Source: Macrocystis pyrifera (taxonomy: Eukaryota > Sar > Phaeophyceae > Laminariales > Laminariaceae). From it: a stretch of 64,000 nucleotides of DNA. The notes below the pieces were generated by a model, which made no database searches, was not told where the DNA came from, and saw only the letters and a list, made by a program, of their open reading frames with translations. How positions within the stretch are numbered: the stretch's first letter is position 1; every line of letters starts with the position of its first letter. A program made the position numbers and the translations under genes. The stretch covers positions 3,286,001 through 3,350,000 of the forward strand of contig JASSKH010000021.1 in assembly GCA_031763025.1 (NCBI GenBank). The letters are read 5' to 3'. This document shows positions 36,365 through 52,900 of the stretch, in pieces.

Positions 36365-38068
36365 CATTATTTGGTAAATGAGTGGAAGCTTTCACAACTT
36401 CCACTTGGAAGTAAAAAACTTCCAAAACTTCCATTTTGACTTCGAGATGGAAGTTTTTCACTTCCAAACGAATTTTTTTTAAACCTCTAAATGGAAGTTG
36501 TGAAAGTCAAAATGGAAGTTTTTTACTTCCAAATGGAAGTTGTGAAAGCCAAAATGGAAGTGTTTTACTTCCAAATGGAAGTTGTGAAAGTCAAAATGGA
36601 AGTTTTGGAAGTTTTTTACTTCCAAATGGAAGTTGTGGAAGTTTATACTTCCGAATGGAAGTTTTGGAAGTCGAGTGGAAAATTCCGTTTAGTCCATGGA
36701 AGTTTCTATTTTGGAAGCTAGTGCAAGCTAGCGTAAGTTTCCAAAGTGGAAGCCAGTGGAAGCAAAATGGAAGCTTCCACTGCCATGCCCGGTAGAAGCT
36801 CCGTTCAACTTCCACTAAGCTTCCATACACCTTGATAACCTTTCACCTGCCGTCACCCACTTCCACTTCACGTCTAGAAGTTCCATTTGACTTCTACCTT
36901 CAGGGAAACTTCCATCGGCGTCCGCAGAATCTTCTTTGCATTTCCATCCTCAGCCGTAACTTCCACTTACTTCCACCTACTCGTACCCGCTTCCATTCAA
37001 CTTCCACAAATTTTGGTCGGCTTTTAAAACTTCCATTCTACATTTAATTTCAACGAAACACGCATCTGAGTTCGCAGAATCTTTTGACCACTCCCTCCAT
37101 ATCCAAGCGCGACTTCCACCTATTTGTACGTACTTCCCACGCACTTCTATTAAGCTTCCAATGGCTACAGCTTACTTACTTATTTAACTTCCACGCACGT
37201 CCGCAGACGCTTCTATCCACTCCTATATTCAAGCTTACCTTCCACCTAATCGCACTTACTTACATCCGCTTCCAATTATCCAACTCCCAAAGTTGCATGT
37301 AACCCCTACTTACACGGAAATTCATACCAGCATTTGCCGAAGCTTCCATACACTCGTATGCAAGCATAAATTCGGCGTACTTTCACGTACTTCCACGTGC
37401 TTTCATCCACTTCCATTAAACTCCCAAGAAATATGTCTGCCTTGTATTACCATGAAAAACTCGCATCTATCTACGTTTGCAGACGCTTCTATCCACTCCC
37501 CGGGGCCCTTATGCATATGGGACTATGGCCTAATTACTTCCTTTCGGAAGTGAAAATGGAAGTTTGGAAGTCAAAACAGAATTATTGGAAGTCGGGTAAG
37601 AGCCTACCACGCGAATTCCATTTCACATTCAACTTTCAAAACCTTCATTTTGACTTCCAAACGGATTTGTTTTTCTTCCCCAAAGGAAAGTTTTTGACTT
37701 CCAAATAAAAGTTTTTGACTTCCAAACGGAGGTTTTCGACTTCCAAATGGAAGTGTCTAGCTTCCAATAACTTCCAAATGAAACTTCCAAATGGAAGTCG
37801 TGAAAGTCCAAATGGAAGTTTTGGAAGTCAAAATGGAAGCTTCCTTCCTCCGAAACCTTCCTTTGTGCCTTCCAAAACTTCCATTTGGAATTCCATTTGG
37901 AAGCTTCCACCCGACTTCCATGTTGACCTCCACAACTTCCATTTTGACTTCCACAACTTCCATTTTGACTTCCACAACTTCCATTTTGACTTTCATAACT
38001 TCCATTTGGAAGTCAAAATGGAAGTTTTGGAAGACGAGTGGACGCTTCCACCCATTTACCAAATAATG
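36365..38068 (-). mobile_element. GGAAGT foldback transposon, copy B (without SINE)
   Basis: The ends CATTATTTGGTAAATGAG and TTTACCAAATAATG match those of the element at 18552-20641. Internal landmarks match it in reverse order, for example 'cgcagaatctt' and the lattice of ACTTCC/GGAAGT palindromes. At 1704 bp it is close to copy A without its SINE (about 1755 bp). Around 36990-37010 it shows the uninterrupted site where copy A carries the SINE. Confidence 0.8.
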
Positions 38069-40849: not shown

Positions 40850-42418
40850 TTAGCAGCCTTGCGCACCGCAGTACTGGCGACCATTGCTTGCATGAAACGA
40901 CTCACAGGGCTGGATTTGGCGTTTGGTGAGCCACGAATCGCCATAGCCAGTAGCAATATATTCGCACGTGTCCAAAGACAAGTACGGATATCGTTGAATG
41001 TCACCGCCCCCGGCGTCGTTCCCCTCCGGCAAGTGCCGTGTCGGTGTGTCCTTGGCGGCCTCCCACAGCACAGCCATCTCTTCCGGATACGCGTGGTGCA
41101 CTCCCATGTGCTCTTGGCACACAGACTCATAGGTCGAAGGGCCGCGTCTCTCTATTTGTTTCATCATACGTTTCACCAAGAGGCCGTCGTGGTCGAGCCG
41201 TTCGTCGTGTACCCAACGCACGTCGCCGTCTTTATTGGCGTCGTGATCCACCGTGAACCAAAAACCCGCCGTAGTCCCAGCATAGGGACCACAGCGAAGG
41301 TCTTCAATTGACAGGACGCGGTGGACTAGAGCGCCCGATAGGAGCATGTACGCCTCGTCTATCCGTGTCTCGCCAGGCTTGCAGTATCGGAAGCCGGCGT
41401 ATAGCATCATCTGCGGCAGCGACGGATCCTCTCTTTCATAGGCCAGAGTCATCTGTCCCGTCAACGAGCGCTTCGTCGCTTCCAACTCATCCAGCAAGCG
41501 GTCAAGGCAAAGGAAGTAATCATCGTCCAATCGGAGGAAAAAATCGAAGTTGTACCGGCCGGACACGTGCTTCATCGCGGAGAGAAGCTTGACAGCAAAG
41601 TTCAAGCCCCTTTCGATGTTCACTACGACAAGATCTCCGTAGGTCTCCGACTCCTCTTTCAAAGCCCTCGCCTCGGCTTGGCCTTCCGGCTGGCTTTCAT
41701 CCGGCGCCTCGGTGAAAAACCGCAGCACCACACGATCATCGGCCCACGCTAGCCACGCGTTACGTACGGCATCTCTCCTCTCCTTACGAATCGTCACAAC
41801 AGCAATGACCAACAACACGGAAGGCTTGTTACCATCCTCGACGTGTTTCATCCCTATTTCCGCATCAGCTTGCAGTTTCCGCTGCTGCTGCTGCTGGCCG
41901 TTGCCTTTTCCCAGGGTTGCTTCGGTTACTTCCGACTCAGCCATGGTTTTTGTCGTTACAAGACTCGTTCTCGCCGCCGATGCCTCGACCGCGATTGCGC
42001 GTTTCGCAGAAGCTGCCCCCTTGCTGGATTCTACGGGATGCTTGAGCCAGTCACCTGTCGCAAAGGTCACCTTCCCTTCCCCCTCTTCCTCCACATAAGG
42101 ATTCGCATTCGCTATGGGCTTTCCCAATCCCTCCATGGCGACACTCGCTGCCGGGGGGTTGAACTTGTAGCCCACGGAAAGTAGATCTTTCAACCACGCC
42201 CGTGTTAAGGCCACGTCCTCTTCTTCTACGATGCCATGCTCGTACATGTCAATAGCAAGGTCTTGGATTTGCACCGGGGAACGGGCAGCAGCAGCGACAC
42301 CTTCGGTGGCGTTGTTCTGACGCCAATATGCTGCTAGGTGAGCGACAAGCGCTCCGCTCCGTTCGTACAGCTCGAACTCGGCTTCGAAGTCCGACATTAT
42401 GTGGCGCGACTCTGTCGA
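40850..42418 (-). CDS. Exon 5: DUF288 C-terminus, linker and GT31 domain
   Basis: A single open exon of 522 codons after the acceptor TTTTGCTGCAG. The first 90 residues (DFEAEFELYERSGALVAH, MYEHGIVEEEDVALTRAWLK, LLSVGYKF) match the C-terminal part of DUF288 proteins, which ties it to exons 1-4. A low-complexity linker with a run of five Gln (about 41880-41900) follows. The GT31 region has RRDAVRNAWLAW, LNFAVKLLSAM, FLRLDDDYFLCL, LLSGALVHRVL and WVHDERLDHDGLL in family order. The C-terminus is Cys-containing (CESFHASNGRQYCGAQGC). Taken alone it would be a GT31 enzyme without a membrane anchor. Confidence 0.85.
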   Translation of the reverse strand, partial: STESRHIMSDFEAEFELYERSGALVAHLAAYWRQNNATEGVAAAARSPVQIQDLAIDMYEHGIVEEEDVALTRAWLKDLLSVGYKFNPPAASVAMEGLGKPIANANPYVEEEGEGKVTFATGDWLKHPVESSKGAASAKRAIAVEASAARTSLVTTKTMAESEVTEATLGKGNGQQQQQRKLQADAEIGMKHVEDGNKPSVLLVIAVVTIRKERRDAVRNAWLAWADDRVVLRFFTEAPDESQPEGQAEARALKEESETYGDLVVVNIERGLNFAVKLLSAMKHVSGRYNFDFFLRLDDDYFLCLDRLLDELEATKRSLTGQMTLAYEREDPSLPQMMLYAGFRYCKPGETRIDEAYMLLSGALVHRVLSIEDLRCGPYAGTTAGFWFTVDHDANKDGDVRWVHDERLDHDGLLVKRMMKQIERRGPSTYESVCQEHMGVHHAYPEEMAVLWEAAKDTPTRHLPEGNDAGGGDIQRYPYLSLDTCEYIATGYGDSWLTKRQIQPCESFHASNGRQYCGAQGC

Positions 42419-43132
42419 CTGCAGCAAAACGGTTCATCGAAAGACAAAAAGAAATAGTGGCTGGGGGTGGGGGATGGGGGTACTCATTCGTTGTTCGAGT
42501 TTGTCTTCTTATAATTTACCATGCGTCCCTTTCGAGACGGAGCACCGTTACCACTCCTAATATAGCTACCTCCTAGATTTAGGCATTCATTACGTTTTTT
42601 TCCGTGTAGTGTGTGGGGGGGGGGGGGGGGGGGGGGGGGGTAAAGAAGCGTTGAAGCAAGAGGCACTGATCGATCGAACTTGTTCGAGCTCTTGGGTCCA
42701 AGTACGTTCGTAACGTAGGCCGAACATGACCCTCATCATACGCATCCGCTGGCAACTCTCGCTAACTGCAGCTGATGAGTCCCAAAAAGAATACCGGCAC
42801 TCATACAGCTTGAATTACATTCGACAGGGTCCACCATTGCTGTTATCCTCGAAAACAAAACAACCACCCCCGCTCCCACCCGAAACTGTTTACCGTGCTC
42901 ACTCGTGTCACCCAAGGAGCAGCAACAGCGGTTACGGCACCCGTCGCCGGAAGCAAAGCTTGCGTGAAGTAGCTGCGCCAGATGTCGCTGACCCTCTCGT
43001 TCACCGTGATGGGAAGCAGCAACCCCCCAGAACGCCGGGATGAAGTGGAGTGTTGCCTGCTCTCGAGTACTCGAGTACCAACAAACAACGGGGTCGGGTC
43101 AGGTACGTTCGACGCGACTAAGCTATCTTGAT

Positions 43133-43188
<56 letters not shown>

Positions 43189-46100
43189 CAAGTGCACGTG
43201 ATAGGCGGAGAGCTATCAATTAGCCAGCAAGATGGCTATATCAGGCGAGCTTGATGCGGCAAAATCATATTGACAGGGGGGGGTGATTTTTCGTATATGT
43301 GACTCGACAAAGGCATTGACCACCAGCAAGGGGGCTGCAGTAGGTCAGATACGTTTGCTGTGGCGGAGCTATTGACGGAGGGATGGAACGTCTGGGTCTC
43401 CATGGTTCTCACGAACAGCCAAGCTCCCGGGGTAAAGCACTCCTACTGTTATGTCAAAAACTCGGACCCGCTTAATTATGACGAAACAATTGAGAGCTAT
43501 CGTACCCCACCTAGTGCTGAGGTCTAGCTCCGCCTGCTTTATACATTCGAACGTGTTGTTGAATAATCTGACAACCGGGTCAACAACAAAACCACGAATA
43601 ACCCTTGCGTTGCACATAAAGAGCATTGTTCGTTTTCTGTATCTGCTTGCTGGGCTTTGGTTACCTGGGCGTTGTAAGGCGTGAAGGCAAACTCCGGCAC
43701 AATATCGAGACTGGAGTCACGCCTTTCCCGCTCCTCGGACATGCCCGCCTCCCTCCCCCCGATTTCGAGCGGTAGGTCCCCTAGCTCAGCCGTCAGCGCC
43801 AAGCGATACATTGCATCGACGTCCGGCTCATGGTTTGCCAGAGATTGCACCACTCCAAGGGGGAGCGGTGTTCCCTCTAGCACAGCCAGCGCTCCCTCCC
43901 GTCCGCCTTCTAGGCCTGCTACACCGCATGCGAAAGACGCTGGGTCGTTTACAGCGTCGAGCGGAAACCCTCGAGGCCAAGCACCCCGCGGGCCTCCAAA
44001 ACACGGATACGGGTTATGGACGGCTGAGCGATCACGTCTTGCCCCTCCCACGGATCTCGTTGGGGGCACCAAGGTAACGAACGGGGAACCCGAGTAAGGT
44101 ATTCCGTCCTCTGGATGTATAGCGGTGTTGGCGTCGTCAAGGTCGTAAATCACCTAGGCCAGAACCAAACGCGAATCCATGTGTTAGTGCTTATGTGCGC
44201 TGATATACAGGGGGTGCTCCTTACGGGAAGGTCGGGGGCGATGCAAGCGCCTGCAATACGGGTGCCCTTCTAAATGACACGTGAGATCACAGCAGCGAGG
44301 ACGGCACCAAGTATTTGCCACGTACTGGGCAGGTTGTCCTCGCTTCAAACGGTCGGTGCTGAACAAAAACACACGATTAGCGAACATCTACCCACGAAAT
44401 ACACGCTGTTTATTCGGTTAGCCTTGGTGAGCTCATACCGCGGCAACGACGCACGTTTTTCTTGATACGTGCTGGGGAGGAATTGTCATCAAGATGCTAC
44501 ACGAAGACACGAGGCTTGCGTACATCTACCTACACACGGTGCGCACGGCGCTTCCGGGTGCCCGGCTGAGCGCATACCCCAACGGCGATGCACCCTATTC
44601 CTAGCGCGCGCGGACGTGACCATCGCGAACAGAATCTCCAACGAAATTCATTCAAGGCTGCATGCGAAAAAGTTGCTGTATCTGCAGTAGACATCAACGC
44701 TATGGCAAGCCATAGTAGGCCGCGGTGGCTGTTCAACTACATTCGACTCGGGGGCGATCCCGCCCCCTTCCCCCAGCGCATGTTGATGGTAAACACGAGT
44801 TCTATTTACTTTACCTCCCCCACGCTCTGCCCAATAGTAGCTCACCTTCGCCCCGTGATGAATAGCGTACAGGTAGCCGACGTTCTTGCGACCAAAGTGG
44901 TCGGGTGGAATAACTTCCAGTATCCGGTACGGCAGTGCTTCTTGGTCGGCAAAAGACAGGTATGTTACTCCCGCGGCATCAAACATCTTGGCACCTGCGA
45001 TGGTGAAGCGATTGGGAAGGAAGACACACATATTAAACGGCGTTCAGTCGGGAGTGGTGATCTTCGTGCGGCAGGCAATTGTTTTCAGCTCTGATTGCCG
45101 CTGGAATCGTCACCCCAACGGCAACGTTTCGCTGGCAGGAGATACTCGCGGACGCTTAGGTGAAAAATAGCCAAATATTTTGGCTGGCGTTGCGCTCTTG
45201 CGTATGTACTCTGGCGATGGCGGTTGATGAAATGATGTTTTTCTGCAATTGTATTACCGAACGCTCGACCAAGCGAGCCCTTCGTCGACCTCTTCAAGAA
45301 AATGCACGTCTCCGTGGTAACAGCTCGGGTTGGCAGGTAGCCAGACCCCATACTCGGTGATTGACAAGGCGGAAATGGCGAAATGAAAAAAAAAAAGGAT
45401 TAATTTATGAGGCAATCTACGACAGGAGTTCACCTTATATTTTCTGAGGCTCCTATGTTCCCCCAAGGTATGATGCGGAGTTAAACGGGAACAAAACACA
45501 TGAACACGACTGATGCTACACGCATCTCGTACTTGTACGTACATGATGTCCAACCACGTAGAGCACAAGCTTCAAACTCATCCTTCAACTGGCGCCCGGC
45601 AAGGACGCCGTGATGGCTCAGAAATCGTTTTTTCCAAATGTGATAAGCATTGTAGAACGCCTCTTATATCACTTCTGACCGTGTTGTTTGTTTATGTATC
45701 GGGGCGGCCAGTGCCGATCTCGCACCGCTAACTACGGTGTACAACGAGGACGAAGATGAGAAAGGCGCGCTGCTGCTTCCCGCGCCGACACGACGATCAC
45801 ACAGACGTATGGTGGTCTCCTTGGTGTGGGCATGTCCAGAAGCTCGTCTTGGGAACGTGTCGAGTGGATAAAACTGGCGCCGGTTGGCTCAAACCAAAGA
45901 CGAGTGTCCGCCATGGAGCATTGACACAATAGGGGTGTATGTCTCTTTTTTCCTCAGTAGTGTTCGACGGGTAGAGCTCTTCAAGCCAAAAACTACCGGT
46001 GAGTATGATACGTTTACTATTACGGGGGAAACATAGCGATCAGGACCAAAAATGATCAGTTTTTGTGTATATGATAGGTCCTGATTGCTGTGGTCGCCCG

Positions 46101-49100
46101 TACTGATAGGGACCTGGTATTTGTTTCGGGACTATATGGCGCATACAAAGGTTGGTCGGGTTGTACAAACAAAATGTCTCCGACGTCATGTCTCAAGGTA
46201 AGATATTGAGCTTCTCTTGAGCTCAGAAATAAAGCACCATCTCTATCATGGCCTTGTCCCACCATGGGAAGCACGGGAACACCTGACTTGGACAGATGAA
46301 AGATCTGCACGAGACAGCAGGCTCAGCTCCCCGAGGCGAGAGGGACAGGGGTGTGACTCGGACGCCTGAACTGCTGTCTTCCGACGGGTGCTGCGGTAGC
46401 GGTAGCACCTAAATTTTCCGAGGCCCATCCGCTGGAAAAACTCTATCTTACCCAAAACCTGTTTTGTGAAACGAAGCTAGGAGCGCAACCCAACGAACAA
46501 TCCCAAAATTCTACGTAGGGTCTATATAGACTTACTTACATACCTATTTATCTCTCAGCGTGCTCGGTTGGTACATCCCTGGCATCTCAGAGCTTCCACA
46601 TGGACACCACCTCTTTCTGTTAACTGCCCAGCAAGAGCCTTTTTTTCTTATTTTCTTCTTTCTGTGCGTGCGTGTATCAAGAACACGACACTGCGGGCAA
46701 GCCCGGCGCCGTCGCGGGTGTCAGCGGGTGCTGGCGGGTAGAGAGGGGGGTTGAACGGAGCGCGGTCGCCGATTTCGTGGCTAGGCGTCACGTGCCCATC
46801 GAGACACGAGGGAAACATGAATAGGCTTTGTCTGGCTTCCTTGTGTGGGGTCAGTTACAATATGTACGAGTCTGTAAGGGTCACTTTGTTCTGCAAGATA
46901 AAAATTCAAGCGGTGTTTATTTTTGCGACCAAACTGAAGTTCACAGAGAGAGCTACGCAGTCTGAGCACAAACATTGTCGAGGTGGCGAAAAAGGGCCGG
47001 GGTGGGCACCGAGCTTCACGCGAGGTGGGCGACGGGGCTCATTGTGGCAGAGAGGGAGGAAAGCTTTACCCCGAACGAACCGGTGGCGTGGTCGTCGCCA
47101 GAGGGGCGGACGGCGTACGAGGCTGAGAGAAGCTCTGCTGGTTGATATATTTTTGACCTGCGTAAGGTGTTCCAATGAAGAGAGGGCAGTGGGGGGGGGG
47201 GTTGTATTTTTTTTCGTTTTCATCTTCGTTGTTTTTGCGGTGGTGCTGGGCCGTGCCGTGCTTTCTCTTTTGTGCGTATCAAAAAAGAAGGAAATAAGTA
47301 CCCTACCTGGAGTATGTACCTACATACGGCATCCGGCGTTCGGGTTGCCTTCCTGGATTGCGCATGGAGCTCTTGGCATTTGCAAGTCGCTTGTTTTGCA
47401 TCTAATTGTCGGGGCCTTCTGTTCCGTTCCGTTCTTCCTCGTGAGCTAGCGTTCCGTCGGCTACGCGAAGCGCTTGTATATGTGTATCACGAGTACTACA
47501 GGTATTGCAACACGATTTTGGTATTCCAACGATATTGGGGTCAAGGGGGCCCGGTCAGTCAAAAATGCTTTCATCAAAAAGTGCTACTGTGCAAAACCCC
47601 TATTGTAGCAAGCCTTATCCCAGCTTCTCCAGCGTCTCTCCCATTGTTTCTGCTCTTGATGAAGCTGTTGTTCACGTTAGGGCAAAAGCCAAAATCAGGT
47701 GCACTTGTTCCATTCCATTTGAGCCCAAAAGCAGATACGTACTGGAACCAAGTAAAAAACACACGCCTCTCGAGAGGGGTGTTTCTGGCCACGAAAATTC
47801 ACAAACATTTTTTTTTTTGCGCCTGAACACTGAGCGTGTGGCCTCCAAAATCTGAACGGTTGTATTTTCTTTGGGATATAGGCACCACGTGCTCCACTTG
47901 GACCTGCAATGGTCACCAGCCTTCGGTAGTATTGCCACGGCGGGCGCGCCGAGGGTATTTGCTCTGGCGCCTCCTCCCCGTTGCCAGCTTTGAAGCCTCT
48001 CGACGATCCTCGCGGAACCGCCTGCTCGGCGCGAAGATATTTCACCAAACCTGAGGCCACCTCGACGCGGGGTAAGGCAGACGGACTACCGTCCGTGTCC
48101 ACGATGCTGACTTAAGCCCATCGTACACCCCAAAAAAGCAAAAGTAAAAGCAGCGTGCATATGTATATAGATACGCAGGTACAGAGTTTGGACATAAGAA
48201 TTGCAACTGAGGGACCGGAACCCGCATACAAACGCAGGGGAACAAGAGTGTACGTATGGCTTCTCTGATTCTCTGGAATTCCGGCTAAAACAGGTGAAAG
48301 CTAGACAAAGTAGACAAATCCAGATGTACATGGCCAGCTTCAAGCCAAAAAACAGGTCCGATGCGTGCCTGGCCAATGGCAAGGCTCCTGGCGAATGATT
48401 GTGCTTGTTTCTAGTGTTAACTTGACTTAGCACAAAAGCGACAAGGTACATACTTCGAGGTAAAAAAAATGATTTTGGCAAGAACATTTTTTTATTGGCT
48501 TGAGTGGCGAAAAATACTGCTCACAACACTGATGGTTTGGTGGAACAGGAGCTGTGGAATTCAGGGATCATTCTCCTTGCTCGGGTTCTACTGCAACGAT
48601 ACTTCAGTCCTGCAGAAGATTTGAGTCTGTCCTTTCTCTCCAATACCATCTGGGACTAAACCGGTGGCTTCACTTCCCGCAGCTGGTTGTTGTTGCCGTT
48701 GTCTTATGGTTATCGTTGTTGTATTGTCATTAAAATATCGTCGCGGATGTTGTTGTCGCGACGGTTAACTGCCGTACCTACATAGAGTCACCCCACGGTA
48801 CGGGTTGCTCTTCTTGGGCCTAAGGTTTCTGACCGATTGAGTTTCTTAAGTGAGGAATCAGCAGTTAGTATGATGAAAATTTTACTCGAATATTCGTTTT
48901 AGGACGATTAATAGCGCATAGAAGTACCGGCCGGGTGGCGCGAACAAATTTCTTCCATGTATTGTATCGGGTGAGATATTGAGCTGAGGGGCTCAGGAAC
49001 GTCTGGTGCACTCCTACCGTGGGATGGCTCCATATCGAACGCCTCCAGCACATCCTAGGCATGTACTGACACATGTCTATAATTTACCTGGTACTATAGG

Positions 49101-49946
49101 TATGTACTTCTTACGAGGATTTGTGTGTATCATTTATACCGGAGAAATGGTCGTGGTAATATATCTCATGATGGCCGTGTGCTGTGTGATACTCCTCATG
49201 TCCAGGAAACAGCGGCAGTGTAAACACACGGGCTACCCCCTATCGAGGAACGTGAGTTTCGTATACAGTACGCAATCAAACTCTTCTTCATTAGACGAGA
49301 GGTTGGGAACAGAAAGTGGGCTACTTTAGCAGAGCACCCTCGGCGGGCTTTCGACGGCAACCCACGACACTGGTGAGAGTATGCGCCCACACTTTCCTTG
49401 CTCGTTCCGATGCCGGGGTCATCACGATCGGTTCAGGGTGGGTCGCAAGCTGGTGTAAACATATTCGGCGCCGTAAGTTAGATTTGAAAAAAAAAAAAGA
49501 CCCACTCTCCACACGAGAGCATGCTTAGTCTTACTCGTTGAGTGCGACTGGGTCTGTACGGTCAATGGTGCAGCGGTTCTTTCAAGTCTCCGTCAATCCG
49601 CCTCCTTGGGTCTTTACTCTCGAGTGAGAATACCCTCCAGCAGTGTAGGCAAGAACATTACGCCCATTCCAATGTATCGTAAGCCTTATTGCCCTCCTCC
49701 TACCACCAACATACACCTCCCCTCACCGTTTTTCTCGTAGCCAACGACCAAGACGCACCAATCCTTCATCCTCGCCAGCTGCCTGACAGCCTCTGTCGCT
49801 CCAATGGCAGGCGACGACAACACGGTAACTCCCCACCGGTCGCATGATGCCCTTTTCTCGGTGGCCGGAAAAAGTGGCACACCTTCTAGTATTCCTACGC
49901 CGTCCGGATCAAACCTCGGGCCCTTATATGTCCGTGTCTTCGTCAT
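40850..49946 (-). CDS. Two-domain glycosyltransferase: DUF288/STELLO-like plus GT31 (five exons)
   Basis: Five minus-strand exons (49946-49727, 44994-44846, 44153-43665, 43056-42903, 42418-40850) join at GT-AG borders with compatible phases into about 859 residues. Residues 1-430 or so resemble DUF288/STELLO glycosyltransferases: DRWGVTVLSSPAIGATEAVR, then FGRKNVGYLYAIHHGAK, then IYDLDDAN (DxD-like), NPYPCFGG...WPRGFPL, EPDVDAMYRLA, RVSDIWRSYFTQ and YEHGIVEEEDVALTRAWLKD. Residues 540-785 resemble GT31 beta-1,3-galactosyltransferases, with RRDAVRNAW and FLRLDDDYFLCL (DDD at 635-637). A linker with five Gln separates them. Such enzymes normally act in the Golgi on glycans or cell-wall polymers. 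Exon 4 carries one surplus base. The true start and membrane anchor may lie further upstream. Confidence 0.75.
42615..42640. repeat. 26-nt G run in intron 4
   Basis: Pure G on the plus strand, so a C run in the pre-mRNA of the minus-strand gene, about 200 nt upstream of the exon 5 acceptor. Confidence 0.9.
42903..43056 (-). CDS. Exon 4 of the DUF288-GT31 gene, with a one-base frame break
   Basis: Acceptor GAGAGCAG and donor ACACGA|GTGAGC enclose 154 bp, one more than a phase-0 exon needs. It opens ATLHFIPAFWG and then, shifted by one base, reads GLLLPITVNERVSDIWRSYF, a highly conserved family block. The switch coincides with six Cs at 43023-43028 (six Gs on the coding strand), where five would keep the frame. 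This could be a homopolymer sequencing error or a real inactivating mutation. Confidence 0.75.
43134..43187. repeat. 54-nt G run in intron 3
   Basis: Uninterrupted G on the plus strand. On the coding strand it is a C run ending about 77 nt before the exon 4 acceptor, where it could act as an extreme polypyrimidine tract. The plus strand could form G-quadruplexes. True length is uncertain because such runs assemble poorly. Confidence 0.9.
43665..44153 (-). CDS. Exon 3 of the DUF288-GT31 gene
   Basis: 163 codons in phase 0 at both ends. The acceptor TTCTGGCCTAG is preceded by CACTAAC, a good branch-point match, and the donor is GCCCAG|GTAACC. It begins VIYDLDDANTA with a DxD-like motif that probably binds a nucleotide-sugar metal ion. 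It also contains NPYPCFGG, WPRGFPLDAV and PDVDAMYRLA, and ends TPYNAQ. These are all family landmarks in the expected order. Confidence 0.85.
44846..44994 (-). CDS. Exon 2 of the DUF288-GT31 gene
   Basis: 149 bp between the acceptor CACCATCGCAG and the donor GCGAAG|GTGAGC. It encodes AKMFDAAGVTYLSFADQEA then LPYRILEVIPPDHFGRKN and VGYLYAIHHGAK, the most conserved N-terminal block of DUF288. Intron 1, at about 4.7 kb (49726-44995), holds a MITE at 46023-46100. Confidence 0.8.
46021..46102. mobile_element. MITE, TA-target family, short copy 5
   Basis: Inverted ends from 46023 (CGGGGGAAACATAGCGATCA) and to 46100, between TA dinucleotides, 78 bp. It is shorter and more diverged than the other copies. 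It lies inside intron 1 of the glycosyltransferase gene. Confidence 0.7.
46145..46330 (-). repeat. Diverged repeat pair in intron 1 (other copy at 48940-49040)
   Basis: 'agatattgagct' and flanking sequence at 46200-46240 recur near 48973-49012. On the minus strand both copies are open, with partly similar peptides (LSSREAQYLT and LSPSAQYLT). I cannot assign it; it may be a decayed element or a lost exon duplicate. Confidence 0.35.
49727..49946 (-). CDS. Exon 1 of the DUF288-GT31 gene
   Basis: An ATG at 49946 opens 73 codons plus one base. DRWGVTVLSSPAIGATEAVR and DWCVLVVGYEKN match the N-terminal sheet of DUF288/STELLO proteins. The exon ends AACG|GTGAGG and leaves a split Gly codon, completed by the GT that opens exon 2. 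The frame stays open for some distance upstream of the ATG and there is no signal anchor here, so this may be an internal exon. Confidence 0.65.
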
Positions 49947-49949
49947 GGA

Positions 49950-52900
49950 GAACGAAGGGATCTGGCCCGGAACGCGGTGGGAGACCGTTTGATTGGGCAG
50001 CGAAGGGTCCGACCGAAGTTGAGTCGGTTGTTGGTTTCGTTTTGGGGGCGTGCAAAGGAACGGTATTTAGGAGGCAGGTCGCAAAAGGGTAGAGGAAACG
50101 GCTAAATGCGACAAACATACCAAGTCAGAGAGTATATTCGTCAATTAGACCGTACTCGTACGCTGCTCTTTGCGGCGACCTCTACATTGTACACCACTGT
50201 TTCGAAAAAGACGTGCATTTTTGTGTATTACTAGTTAGTTATAATGGTCATTACATTTCGGTACATATTGTACCGAAAGGTGTTCCATGCATATGTAGGA
50301 CGTGCGCATTCGAATCATGCTGCGGTGCAGTACGAAAGAAAGGTACAAGGAAAAGGCAAACTCTCTCAATCGTTCTGGGAATTAAACACGAGGCACAACG
50401 CTGGAGTTTCAAAAATGTACTCTGAATTCAACGCGGCCCTCGCGGCTGAAACATCTTACGTACGCTGACACCTACTACTATTGTTGTATCGCCACTACTT
50501 GCTGTAATATGACAACATGAAGGCAACAAGATCAACCTAGAGCTACGTACGGTAGGCGCCTCTGAAACAACTGTTTCTTCTACTGCGCTCGTCAAAGGGC
50601 ACCTGTACGCAACGTGCGAATGTGGACCGAACGTCTCGGACGCCGGACCACTGCTGTAGGACATCATCAACCCCACGCAACCCTTGCGGCACTGCTGATA
50701 GTTGGGGGTATGTTGTGAGTGAAAACAATTCACGATGAATGGTAGAGCGCAAGCCTCGGAGTTCGAGCAATGTGGCAGCATCATATTATCAACCCCACAC
50801 AACTTTTGCACAGTTGTAGTACAGTAGTTCGGAGTTCTGCTGTGCGTATTCTTAACCGCGCATTCAGCTCGACGTACTTCCTTAGTTTGATTGTGCTCGG
50901 AAAAATCGGCGCCGGAGAACAGATTGCTGACAAGGAAACTCTGCGTCGAGTTCGACGAGCTGAACGCTGTCGGAGACATCCACGCTCGACACGGTACGTC
51001 GGGTGGTATGTGGACACCGTCAAATCATGCTGCTAAAGCGCATCGAAATCGAAGGTATGCGGTAGATCAGGTTTGACTACAGGCTTCACTACCTCCTGCC
51101 GTGCAAGAAGAGAGTATGCCTTCGAGCATGAAATGCCATCAACACGTGATAGTTAAACCGCAACAATGGCAACCTCGCTGACACAGTCAAGGGTCTCCAT
51201 GTACTTATTATTGGCACGTTCCCCCTATAGACTGGCGAAAACTAAACTGCTCGGCGTTATTCATGAAATGCAGCGATGTTTACGCCATCATGAAAGGGCA
51301 GGCCGACCATAGCAACAAGAGAGTCCACCGTGACAGCAGATCCTGCCCTCGTGCATCCCCCGGAAGCACACGGCAGAGCGTCTCGCGACCTTCACACAAT
51401 CAAGCGCATGGCGACGCAGAAACCGGCATCTCCATCGTGCTCAGACACGAGAGGGTAACTTGCGGCAGCGATGAAGGGCGGAACGCCTAGGAGAAACTGC
51501 AATAGAATTGTACTATTAATATCTAAGTCACTGACGGGACCACCCGCGTAAGGGCAACAGAGCGGGCAGCAACCACCGTGAAGCAAGTCCGGACAAGATC
51601 CGGGTTTCTCCTTTACCGAGGCGATAGTCAAGCGCGCAGAAAGGTTAAGCGACGGACGAGCCCATGACCGGCCGGCATTGCAAGGACATCTCCGTCCGAG
51701 CGTTGCCCAGAGTACGAGAGCATCAAAACTATGATGCATCGTAACCCAACCTTTGACCTCGCCCAGAACTGGACGCCACTTGTATCTAGACAACCATTGC
51801 CGTGGCGCTGCAGCAGGGGGTATGACTACTGGACATGATGTCACGTCAGTGGAGTCAGTTGTTTGACACCAGGTACGTGCACTGCTGTGTATCTGTTACG
51901 AGGAATGACTTATCCGCGGAACGACGGTATACAACTGCCAAAAGCAACATCGGAGCATACACCAAGCACGACAAGGGCCAGAACGACGTCAAAAGGAACA
52001 TTGCGGGAGCCAAGGGTGAGTCCAGGAGCGCAAGCGGCGCGGAGGAAACGTAGTGCTGCGTCTACAAGTCCACGCCTCACAACAACGCTGAGTGCTATCA
52101 GTATGGAGCGCCACGCCCACAGCACAGCGCATGCACCACATCTGTGCTCGGAGCCAGCAACGCTTTGGCTGTTGACTAGGAGTCGACCTTCAGCGTCAGC
52201 GATTATTGCTTGGCAGTGGTTTCTTGAGGATAGCGTCTATCGCAGGAAGGACCGTTTTGCCGAACAACTACGCACAGAATGGCGATGATGGTAATCCCCG
52301 GGTTGAATGACCTGGTAAGACACTACTCTTTGTTGAACAACCGAAGACGATCGTGCCCACCGGCAACAGTAAACTATGTGGGACTGCAACTGGAATCCTC
52401 CAACGCGCTATCGTCGACCAGACTGGCAAGAAGTGTCAAGCCCGTTTTCGCCCCTTGGGCTTTCAGGCCTGGGGCGCCACTTCTTCTGCTCGGTCTTGGA
52501 AATAAGGAAAGGGATCACCACCATCAATGAGGAGAGGCATTCTACGATAGAGGTCCACCCTAAATTTTCTGAGGCTCTTCACTTGACCTTAAGGAGCTCC
52601 ATAGACCTCACCCGAAAACTGACTTCAGCAAAAATAAAATTGCATGCCGATCAATAAATTCGAATACCCAAGTATACAAAAAAAAGTCATTTTTCGGGCA
52701 ATTATGATGTGGCCGTGCGAAAGAGAGCGGTGATGATGGAGAGTGATGGGAGAGTGAGGTAGTGGTGCTCACATCTCTGGTGCGATTACCAGGTGTAATC
52801 ACCCTGACAAGTCGTGAACAACTTACTATACATGACCCCATGATATGACCATATGACCATGTGCCAGTACGCCAGAACCCCCGTATTCCAGTATGCTATG

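Follow-up and report, generated by a model that had tools for sequence, protein, structure and literature searches.

The 64,000 nucleotides of Macrocystis pyrifera DNA analyzed here (the window) raise the question of whether a STELLO (DUF288) module and a GT31 module are encoded by one gene and, if so, what the joined protein would do. The fusion is real: a predicted gene in this brown alga joins the two modules in one chain. It lies on the minus strand in five exons, running from 49961 to 40850, and encodes a GT75-like STELLO module followed by the GT31 module (Table 1).

Gene model and the frame break in exon 4

The join falls within exon 5, which alone spans the STELLO tail and continues into GT31. 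The initial annotation had read this large 3' exon as passing from the end of DUF288 into GT31 without a stop, and this proved correct; measured from stop to stop, the frame spans 527 codons (40850 to 42433, minus strand), with both domains matched. No other frame in the window is as long, the runner-up being 272 amino acids, and when the window was simulated 60 times with an order-2 Markov model, the longest frame had a mean of 256 and a maximum of 390 amino acids.

Table 1. Coordinates of the predicted STELLO-GT31 gene and its features within the window
Feature	Position	Strand	Description
Exon 1	49727..49961	-	Start of GT75-like STELLO module; AG before 49961, donor GTGAGG at 49726
Intron 1	44995..49726	-	4,732 nt, GT-AG
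Exon 2	44846..44994	-	STELLO module, HFGRKNVGYLYAIHHGAK
Exon 3	43665..44153	-	STELLO module; DLDDA at 44130-44144, PRGFP, PDVD motif
Exon 4	42903..43056	-	STELLO module, RVSDIWRSYF; Pfam STELLO profile begins here
Frame break (+1)	43023..43028	-	Run of six G within exon 4
Exon 5 (last)	40850..42418	-	STELLO tail, linker, GT31 domain, tail; stop TAA; 522 codons
Linker between modules	41903..42163	-	pLDDT under 50; linker codons Ka/Ks 0.70
GT31 DDD	41519..41527	-	Motif II, metal/donor site; residues 298-300 of exon 5
IDEAY	41348..41362	-	Region of canonical motif IV
AGTTAGFW	41258..41281	-	Aligned with GT31 motif V, EDVSLGAW in B3GALT6
His441	41096..41098	-	Invariant in 58/58 brown-type rows (among matches listed)

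In profile searches, exon 5 alone matched Galactosyl_T at 37.3 bits (cut-off 23) and the STELLO profile over positions 35 to 110 at 21.9 bits, under the cut-off of 27.8. When the exon-joined product was read across the frame break, the Pfam check that had been suggested placed both families above their cut-offs, with 36.3 bits for STELLO (PF03385, profile positions 1 to 110, gathering threshold 27.8) and 36.1 bits for Galactosyl_T, whose match covers positions 1 to 108 of 195 at either score. The pieces from exons 1 to 4, scanned singly, matched no Pfam family. The DUF288 label is loose, as the profile starts in exon 4 and exons 1 to 3 fall in the GT75-like region upstream; profile positions ~111 to 387 are unmatched in the window product, and GT31 follows in their place. 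Matches in ten relatives scanned with the STELLO profile, a set without plant STELLO, also end at 108 to 121.

The four upstream exons had been described as lying in the right order and phase. The order stands, with GT-AG introns and brown-algal relatives that match every upstream exon. The phase does not, as exon 4 carries a frame break that puts ATLHFIPAFWG and LLLPITVNERVSDIWRSYF in successive frames, and because of it the window copy as assembled encodes no intact protein. A second copy of the gene in this genome shares these exons, among them a counterpart of exon 1 (L007, about 1492 to 1265). At the site matching 43023 to 43028 it has five G and reads through; its own frame break is in exon 5.

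The occurrence of a break in each copy, together with a Ka/Ks of 1.29 for exon 1 alone (from 15 differences), would suit a pseudogene, with the window copy a recently broken duplicate, and two HSP70 copies on C205 have no frame break, so indels are not ubiquitous in this assembly. We nevertheless regard a pseudogene as improbable. Ka/Ks is far below 1 across both the STELLO module and the GT31 module, and each fused copy has one break, located within a short homopolymer run. In a standalone STELLO gene on C199 the frame changes twice within exon 3, and in a third HSP70 copy on C205 it changes once; these would fit assembly indels, though they do not prove them.

The 5' end of the gene may extend further than modeled. 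The relative P0003 has a longer N-terminus than the window model and an N-terminal helix at 13 to 31, predicted with low confidence, so the model's Met at 49946 could be an internal residue; another N-terminal exon, carrying a membrane anchor, is expected upstream of exon 1. A scan for minus-strand frames that start with ATG and have both a hydrophobic stretch and a phase-0 donor, extending up to 10 kb past the window, gave six rows, two from one frame, and no convincing anchor exon. The nearest candidate, at 52001, was unconfirmed by alignment of the two gene copies. The window upstream of exon 1 had no match in tblastn with six relatives. For the second copy, one tblastn alignment extends further upstream, yet the frame there contains a stop.

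Fused relatives and fusion history

A search of related species for the joined architecture, which had been proposed as a check, found it in proteins from Ectocarpus, Pylaiella, Discosporangium and, in partial form, Sphacelaria; with the exons shared by the second genome copy, this bears out the fusion. Among the matches listed, 31 other brown-type proteins ("brown-type" being defined from trees and named members) carry a STELLO part and GT31 together, and in 28 of these the STELLO part takes in the tail. Standalone STELLO (P0016, and C199 in the same genome) and standalone brown-type GT31 (P0151, P0168) also exist, which is the one point in favor of two separate genes misjoined by read-through. 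Against this stand those 31 proteins and the position of the join inside one open exon, and a misjoining is scarcely credible. The common ancestor of the sampled brown algae probably had the two modules in one chain already.

The pairing also occurs outside algae, as bivalves and a brittle star have both modules in one chain in reverse order. The matches listed comprise 286 proteins, 61 of them fused (36 forward, 25 reverse), 180 with STELLO only and 45 with GT31 only. They were taken from the best 120 of 156 matches and the best 120 of 1109 from a search seeded with the fused protein P0063, with 4 rows added by hand; the fused set is biased by its fused seed, and 61/286 is no frequency estimate. 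STELLO modules were also seen paired with epimerase, DUF7796, GT29 and methyltransferase domains, GT31 being one partner among several.

A single shared origin of all fused proteins was rejected in the form of one clade: on a quick STELLO tree, the fused rows together with two brown standalone rows did not group as one (AU test, p 8e-66; 41 rows against 35, the group having been named after the tree was seen, a choice for which the test makes no correction). This result fits several fusions or one old fusion with many losses alike. The GT31 tree has two STELLO-linked groups with a long branch between them; its outgroup comprises three clearly canonical rows, two partial, and long branches meet there, and we make no claim that the groups are sisters. 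Because the order is opposite and the two GT31 groups are parted by that long branch, more than one fusion event, in both orders, appears to have occurred.

Active-site residues of the two modules

The STELLO module has the GT75 fold in the predicted structure, and the window keeps the core GT75-type residues D109, D110, R159, D195, D197, Q229, R257 and D260 (MtdL numbering), R159 being aligned to the Arg of PRGFP in exon 3. The DD and DVD motifs are required in Arabidopsis STELLO (PMC4906169); their aligned residues D109, D110, D195 and D197 are kept here, the Arabidopsis correspondence being by motif and not by alignment. The metal and diphosphate ligands are lost. At MtdL Asp87, Asp111 and His287 the window has F, A and R, and its DLDD-A motif lacks the third Asp, a metal ligand in MtdL; the loop-A Arg and His (R289, H292) are also absent. 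The loop-A residues sit at the exon 4/5 junction and hence depend on the splice model, while the loss of D111 is independent of it; the loop is changed in the second copy's translations as well. Compared with MtdL and plant UAM/RGP, both GT75 NDP-pyranose mutases, the window copy thus has Phe for Asp87, is also changed at D111, H287, R289 and H292, and is joined to GT31. Arabidopsis STELLO1/2 (GT75-related, PF03385) likewise have a GT75-like module, and the type II Golgi topology of those proteins is expected of the window gene; the window copy departs from them in its lost metal and diphosphate ligands and in the profile region that GT31 replaces. Given that R159, D195, R257 and D260 are kept, the window copy may retain some STELLO chemistry.

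The C-terminal module has the GT31 fold, with 9q8z and 9o4g among its fold matches, and shares with the beta-1,3-galactosyltransferases B3GalT6 and B3GalT5 and with GfsA a DDD metal motif and a conserved C-terminal His. By comparison with H379 of GfsA, that residue, His441, is a candidate metal ligand. The module differs from these enzymes in its fused STELLO, in an Asp-Glu pair near motif IV and in having Gly in place of the motif V base. The pair (Asp354-Glu355, in IDEAY) does not vary across the 58 brown-type GT31 rows among the matches listed. The Gly occupies the position of the catalytic-base Asp, as judged by sequence alignment, and that Asp is kept in only 5 of the 104 STELLO-linked or brown-type GT31 rows among the matches listed, so the GT31 module could be inactive or work differently. 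A conserved Cys lies in the tail after the domain. How the two modules are oriented to each other in the predicted structure is unsure (pTM 0.60). The uncharacterised bivalve and brittle-star proteins also have an Asp-Glu pair, and most have Gly in place of the motif V base; they differ in module order, in belonging to another GT31 tree group and in having STELLO D111, R289 and H292 intact (25 of 25 reverse-order rows among the matches listed).

These residues bear on the initial annotation, which took DLDD and DDD as two catalytic sites of a bifunctional enzyme adding successive sugars. The GT31 half of the motif claim holds, with DDD and the invariant His kept; the STELLO half fails at the missing third Asp. 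Two-site Golgi enzymes are known, chondroitin synthases among them, and besides the eight core residues kept in the window, P0010 of Discosporangium, P0006 of Ectocarpus and P0007 retain D111, R289 and H292; Ectocarpus P0003 has a worn site, as does the window copy. For the window copy the proposal is not supported, given its loss of D111, R289 and H292, the changed loop of the second copy and the Gly at the GT31 base; that two working sites attach one sugar after the other is unlikely in our view.

The catalytic Arg159, Asp195 and Asp260 of a GT75 NDP-pyranose mutase are all present. A similarly doubtful alternative is that STELLO converts an NDP-pyranose to an NDP-furanose that the fused GT31 transfers, an ancestral activity lost or altered in the window copy. 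MtdL Asp87, needed for MtdL mutase activity, is mostly Phe in STELLO modules (172 of 176 standalone, 25 of 25 reverse and 9 of 14 forward, among the matches listed), and the inactive AtRGP5 has Tyr there (PMC9937993). The Arg matching the self-glycosylation site (R271) is dispensable in Arabidopsis (PMC4906169). In fold score, GfsA falls far below B3GalT6, and the window copy is without metal ligands.

Proposed function and significance

The reading we prefer, with a probability of roughly 0.55, is that of one Golgi-type glycosyltransferase with a working GT31 and STELLO as a folded partner. One gene would give one protein with two modules of catalytic type. The STELLO module at the N-terminus is folded like the GT75 NDP-sugar mutases, and a flexible linker connects it to a C-terminal GT31 module, from a brown-algal subfamily, that replaces the C-terminal part of the STELLO profile. 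GT31 is most likely the working transferase in this lineage; it would act in the Golgi lumen and add one sugar, probably galactose or a related one, to a glycoprotein or polysaccharide of the wall. The STELLO module, having lost its metal and diphosphate ligands, most likely positions the acceptor or partner proteins.

In brown algae, GT31 is among the largest glycosyltransferase families, and members have been suggested for arabinogalactan-protein synthesis (PMC11468063). The enzymatic activity of STELLO is described in PMC9321575 as not established, and plants without STELLO make less cellulose. A cellulose role for the window gene would be an extrapolation from plants. A search of the literature for DUF288 or STELLO with brown alga or GT31, with most subscription journals outside its scope, found no report of the fusion, including in the passages covered of PMC5466300, the CAGE paper, a brown-algal CAZyme survey and a fucoidan review.

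More tentatively, STELLO and GT31 could be a functional pair across eukaryotes, joined repeatedly and in both orders, with STELLO supplying or presenting an activated sugar for GT31 partners with moved acidic residues (Asp-Glu close to motif IV and Gly where motif V has its base). Both plant STELLO and the GT31 CAGE enzymes are important in cellulose synthesis, and neither has an established activity; if such a pair exists, these free-standing enzymes should act on the same glycan. Natural variants with intact and worn STELLO sites are ready-made test pairs, and the opposite-order fusions of brown algae and bivalves offer a direct lead on the working partner of STELLO.

Gene structure and reading frame

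The fused gene lies on the minus strand of the window, in a genome of 537,376,219 bases, and comprises five exons with GT-AG boundaries at every intron and intron phases of 1, 0, 0, and 0, the last value holding only when a frame break in exon 4 is read through. The exon 5 frame, 527 codons from stop to stop, is the longest in the window; the runner-up has 272, and the longest in 60 order-2 Markov simulations did not exceed 390. The exon-joined product matched the Pfam profiles STELLO (PF03385; 36.3 bits) and Galactosyl_T (PF01762; 36.1 bits), both above the Pfam cut-offs. Only the first ~110 of 387 STELLO positions were matched, with GT31 occupying the place of the remainder, and the match likewise ended at 108 to 121 in ten scanned relatives. 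An N-terminal helix (13 to 31) predicted with low confidence for the Ectocarpus protein P0003 is absent from the window gene model. Plus-strand G runs of 26 (42615-42640) and 54 (43134-43187) lie within introns of the gene, and short tandem-repeat arrays, mostly with a 21-base unit, occur at 36489-36671 and 37648-38007.

Coordinates of the fused gene and related features (window positions unless a contig is given)
Feature	Location	Strand	Basis or remark
Exon 1	49961-49727	-	exon translation, splice sites
Exon 2	44994-44846	-	exon translation, splice sites
Exon 3	44153-43665	-	exon translation, splice sites
Exon 4	43056-42903	-	exon translation, splice sites; frame break inside
Exon 5 (last)	42418-40850	-	exon translation, splice sites
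Standalone STELLO-module gene	L008, G000:C199 around 4794550-4799710, and L010		stop right after module
Segmental duplication	38318-64000 vs G000:C202:3172000-3201900 (L006, L007, L012)		both fused copies and introns included

The initial annotation held that the upstream exons follow in the right order and phase. The order stands: brown-algal relatives matched the exons in the same order by tblastn, and the introns are GT-AG. The phase fails at exon 4, where the frame shifts within a six-G run (43023-43028). In a second fused copy from the same genome the run has five G and the frame is continuous, so the annotated phase is one base off in this assembly. That copy has a frame change in exon 5, plus one TAG in one search row, and the standalone STELLO gene on C199 has two frame changes in exon 3. 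In an HSP70 copy (G000:C205:2197318-2197636), adjoining pieces overlap in two frames, by coordinates, which suggests a conserved gene with an indel; two further HSP70 copies close by show no break. We lean toward reading the frame breaks as assembly indels.

The second copy lies ~151 kb from the first, with 86 to 87% identity in exon 5, and both belong to a larger duplicated stretch of many blocks, mostly 72 to 90% identical and some rearranged or repeated. Ka/Ks between the copies was 0.42 overall, 0.31 for the STELLO part (429 codons; bootstrap, 0.19 to 0.55), and 0.36 for GT31 plus tail (325 codons; bootstrap, 0.21 to 0.60). The linker gave 0.70 (104 codons), possibly inflated because codons were paired frame by frame and a few near the second copy's break may be mispaired; exon 1 alone gave 1.29, from 15 differences. 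Since the duplication, both modules appear to have been under constraint.

Distribution of the fused architecture

The STELLO-GT31 fusion proposed in the initial annotation is real, both Pfam domains occurring in single proteins of named brown algae: among the 120 of 156 matches listed in the first protein search, Ectocarpus (P0003 to P0006, partial P0012, P0013), Sphacelaria (P0008, partial), Pylaiella (P0009), and Discosporangium (P0010). The reverse order, GT31 then STELLO, was seen in the bivalves Pecten, Mizuhopecten, Argopecten, Ylistrum, and Mytilus and the brittle star Amphiura. Two purpose-built profiles sorted 286 rows (282 database proteins, the window product, the C199 row, an own-genome GT31, and human B3GALT6) into 36 STELLO-GT31 (forward), 25 reverse, 180 STELLO-only, and 45 GT31-only. 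Four forward rows (P0028, P0063, P0202, and P0207) fell outside the brown-algal groups on trees. The STELLO tail is present in 28 of the 31 brown-type fused proteins other than the window product; P0019, P0021, and P0146 have the N-terminal STELLO part only. The C199 STELLO piece ends directly after the module, as does Scytosiphon P0016. P0028 carries two consecutive GT31 domains, and STELLO modules with DUF7796, sugar epimerase/dehydratase, GT29, or methyltransferase domains were seen in P0025, P0031, P0051, P0058, P0065, P0106, and P0280. Fusion of the STELLO module to other domains seems to be common.

In the 48-row GT31 tree, the 14 brown-algal domains formed one group (90/88), separate from the domains of reverse and other forward proteins (97/84, and 99/98 on a branch of 2.0). 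In the 76-row STELLO tree, the 12 brown modules clustered together (99), with the four non-brown forward-fused modules scattered. A single clade of all fused rows, a group chosen after the tree was inspected, was rejected on the STELLO tree, a result that does not separate several fusions from one old fusion with many losses; several independent fusions are the simplest reading.

The two active sites

In MtdL, which belongs to GT75 and is an NDP-pyranose mutase, Mn2+ is bound by D111 and H287, loop A residues R289 and H292 touch the diphosphate, R159 and D260 are the proposed nucleophile and base, and changes at D87, D109, D195, Q229, or R257 abolish activity (PMC9937993). We compared 215 STELLO rows (14 forward-fused, 25 reverse, and 176 standalone), excluding P0009, P0011, and others with <70% module coverage. 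R159, D195, D197, R257, and D260 were near-invariant, the His287 position was mostly Gln, and the D87 position was Phe in 172/176 standalone, 25/25 reverse, and 9/14 forward rows. The window product keeps D109, D110, R159, D195, D197, Q229, R257, and D260 and has A at 111, R at 287, T at 289, and R at 292. D111, R289, and H292 were all kept in 207 rows, one was lost in P0096, and all were lost in seven: the window product, P0003, P0004, P0005, P0008, P0012, and P0013. These seven fell in two places on the STELLO tree (window with P0008; Ectocarpus rows), and P0006/P0007, P0010, P0016, and the C199 module retain the site. On this tree the site was likely lost more than once, with moderate branch support. 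In Arabidopsis, DD205-206 and DVD297-299 are described as required, and R271 and DD591-592 as dispensable (PMC4906169).

In the GT31 domain, DDD is kept in 56 of 58 brown-type rows (window and P0174 counted), the other two having Ser at the third position, and Asp354, Glu355, Asn395, and His441 (exon 5 numbering) are invariant in all 58. The column of the canonical catalytic base was set by B3GALT6 EDVSLGAW, with motifs I to V following the summary in PMC11538602. By sequence rather than structural alignment, Asp occupied that column in 1/32 brown-type fused, 0/42 brown-type GT31-only, 0/5 other forward-fused, and 4/25 reverse rows; Gly was commonest. P0174, omitted from these groups, retains Asp by eye. 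An Asp-Glu pair 15 to 75 residues past DDD, absent from B3GALT6, was found in 32/32, 40/42, 5/5, and 25/25 of the same groups, the pattern being loose enough for chance matches, as perhaps in the canonical own-genome L014. We infer that this pair could be a replacement base.

Function and significance

For the window copy we slightly favor, at roughly 55%, a protein in which GT31 would be the single working transferase and the STELLO module would be retained for folding, positioning, or partner binding. Two-site transfer, or hand-over from a mutase to a transferase, may apply chiefly to relatives with an intact STELLO site. The fused Discosporangium P0010, which branches deepest among the brown rows of the STELLO tree, has D111, R289, and H292 intact and Asp at the GT31 base position; both sites may thus have been functional in the ancestor of the brown proteins.

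Golgi glycosyltransferases with two domains are known. Databases contain proteins with the STELLO-GT31 combination, unnamed or labelled uncharacterised, and we found no description of it in the literature searched on STELLO/DUF288 with brown algae or GT31. Beyond the initial annotation, the analysis adds a GT75-mutase fold in which ligands are lost, the absence of the GT31 base, and the animal fusions in opposite order. Plant STELLO and the GT31 proteins CAGE1/2 act from the Golgi on cellulose synthesis, and neither has an established activity; the CAGE paper cites STELLO as a parallel (PMC9321575). Because the fusions were apparently repeated, a shared STELLO-GT31 pathway becomes testable.
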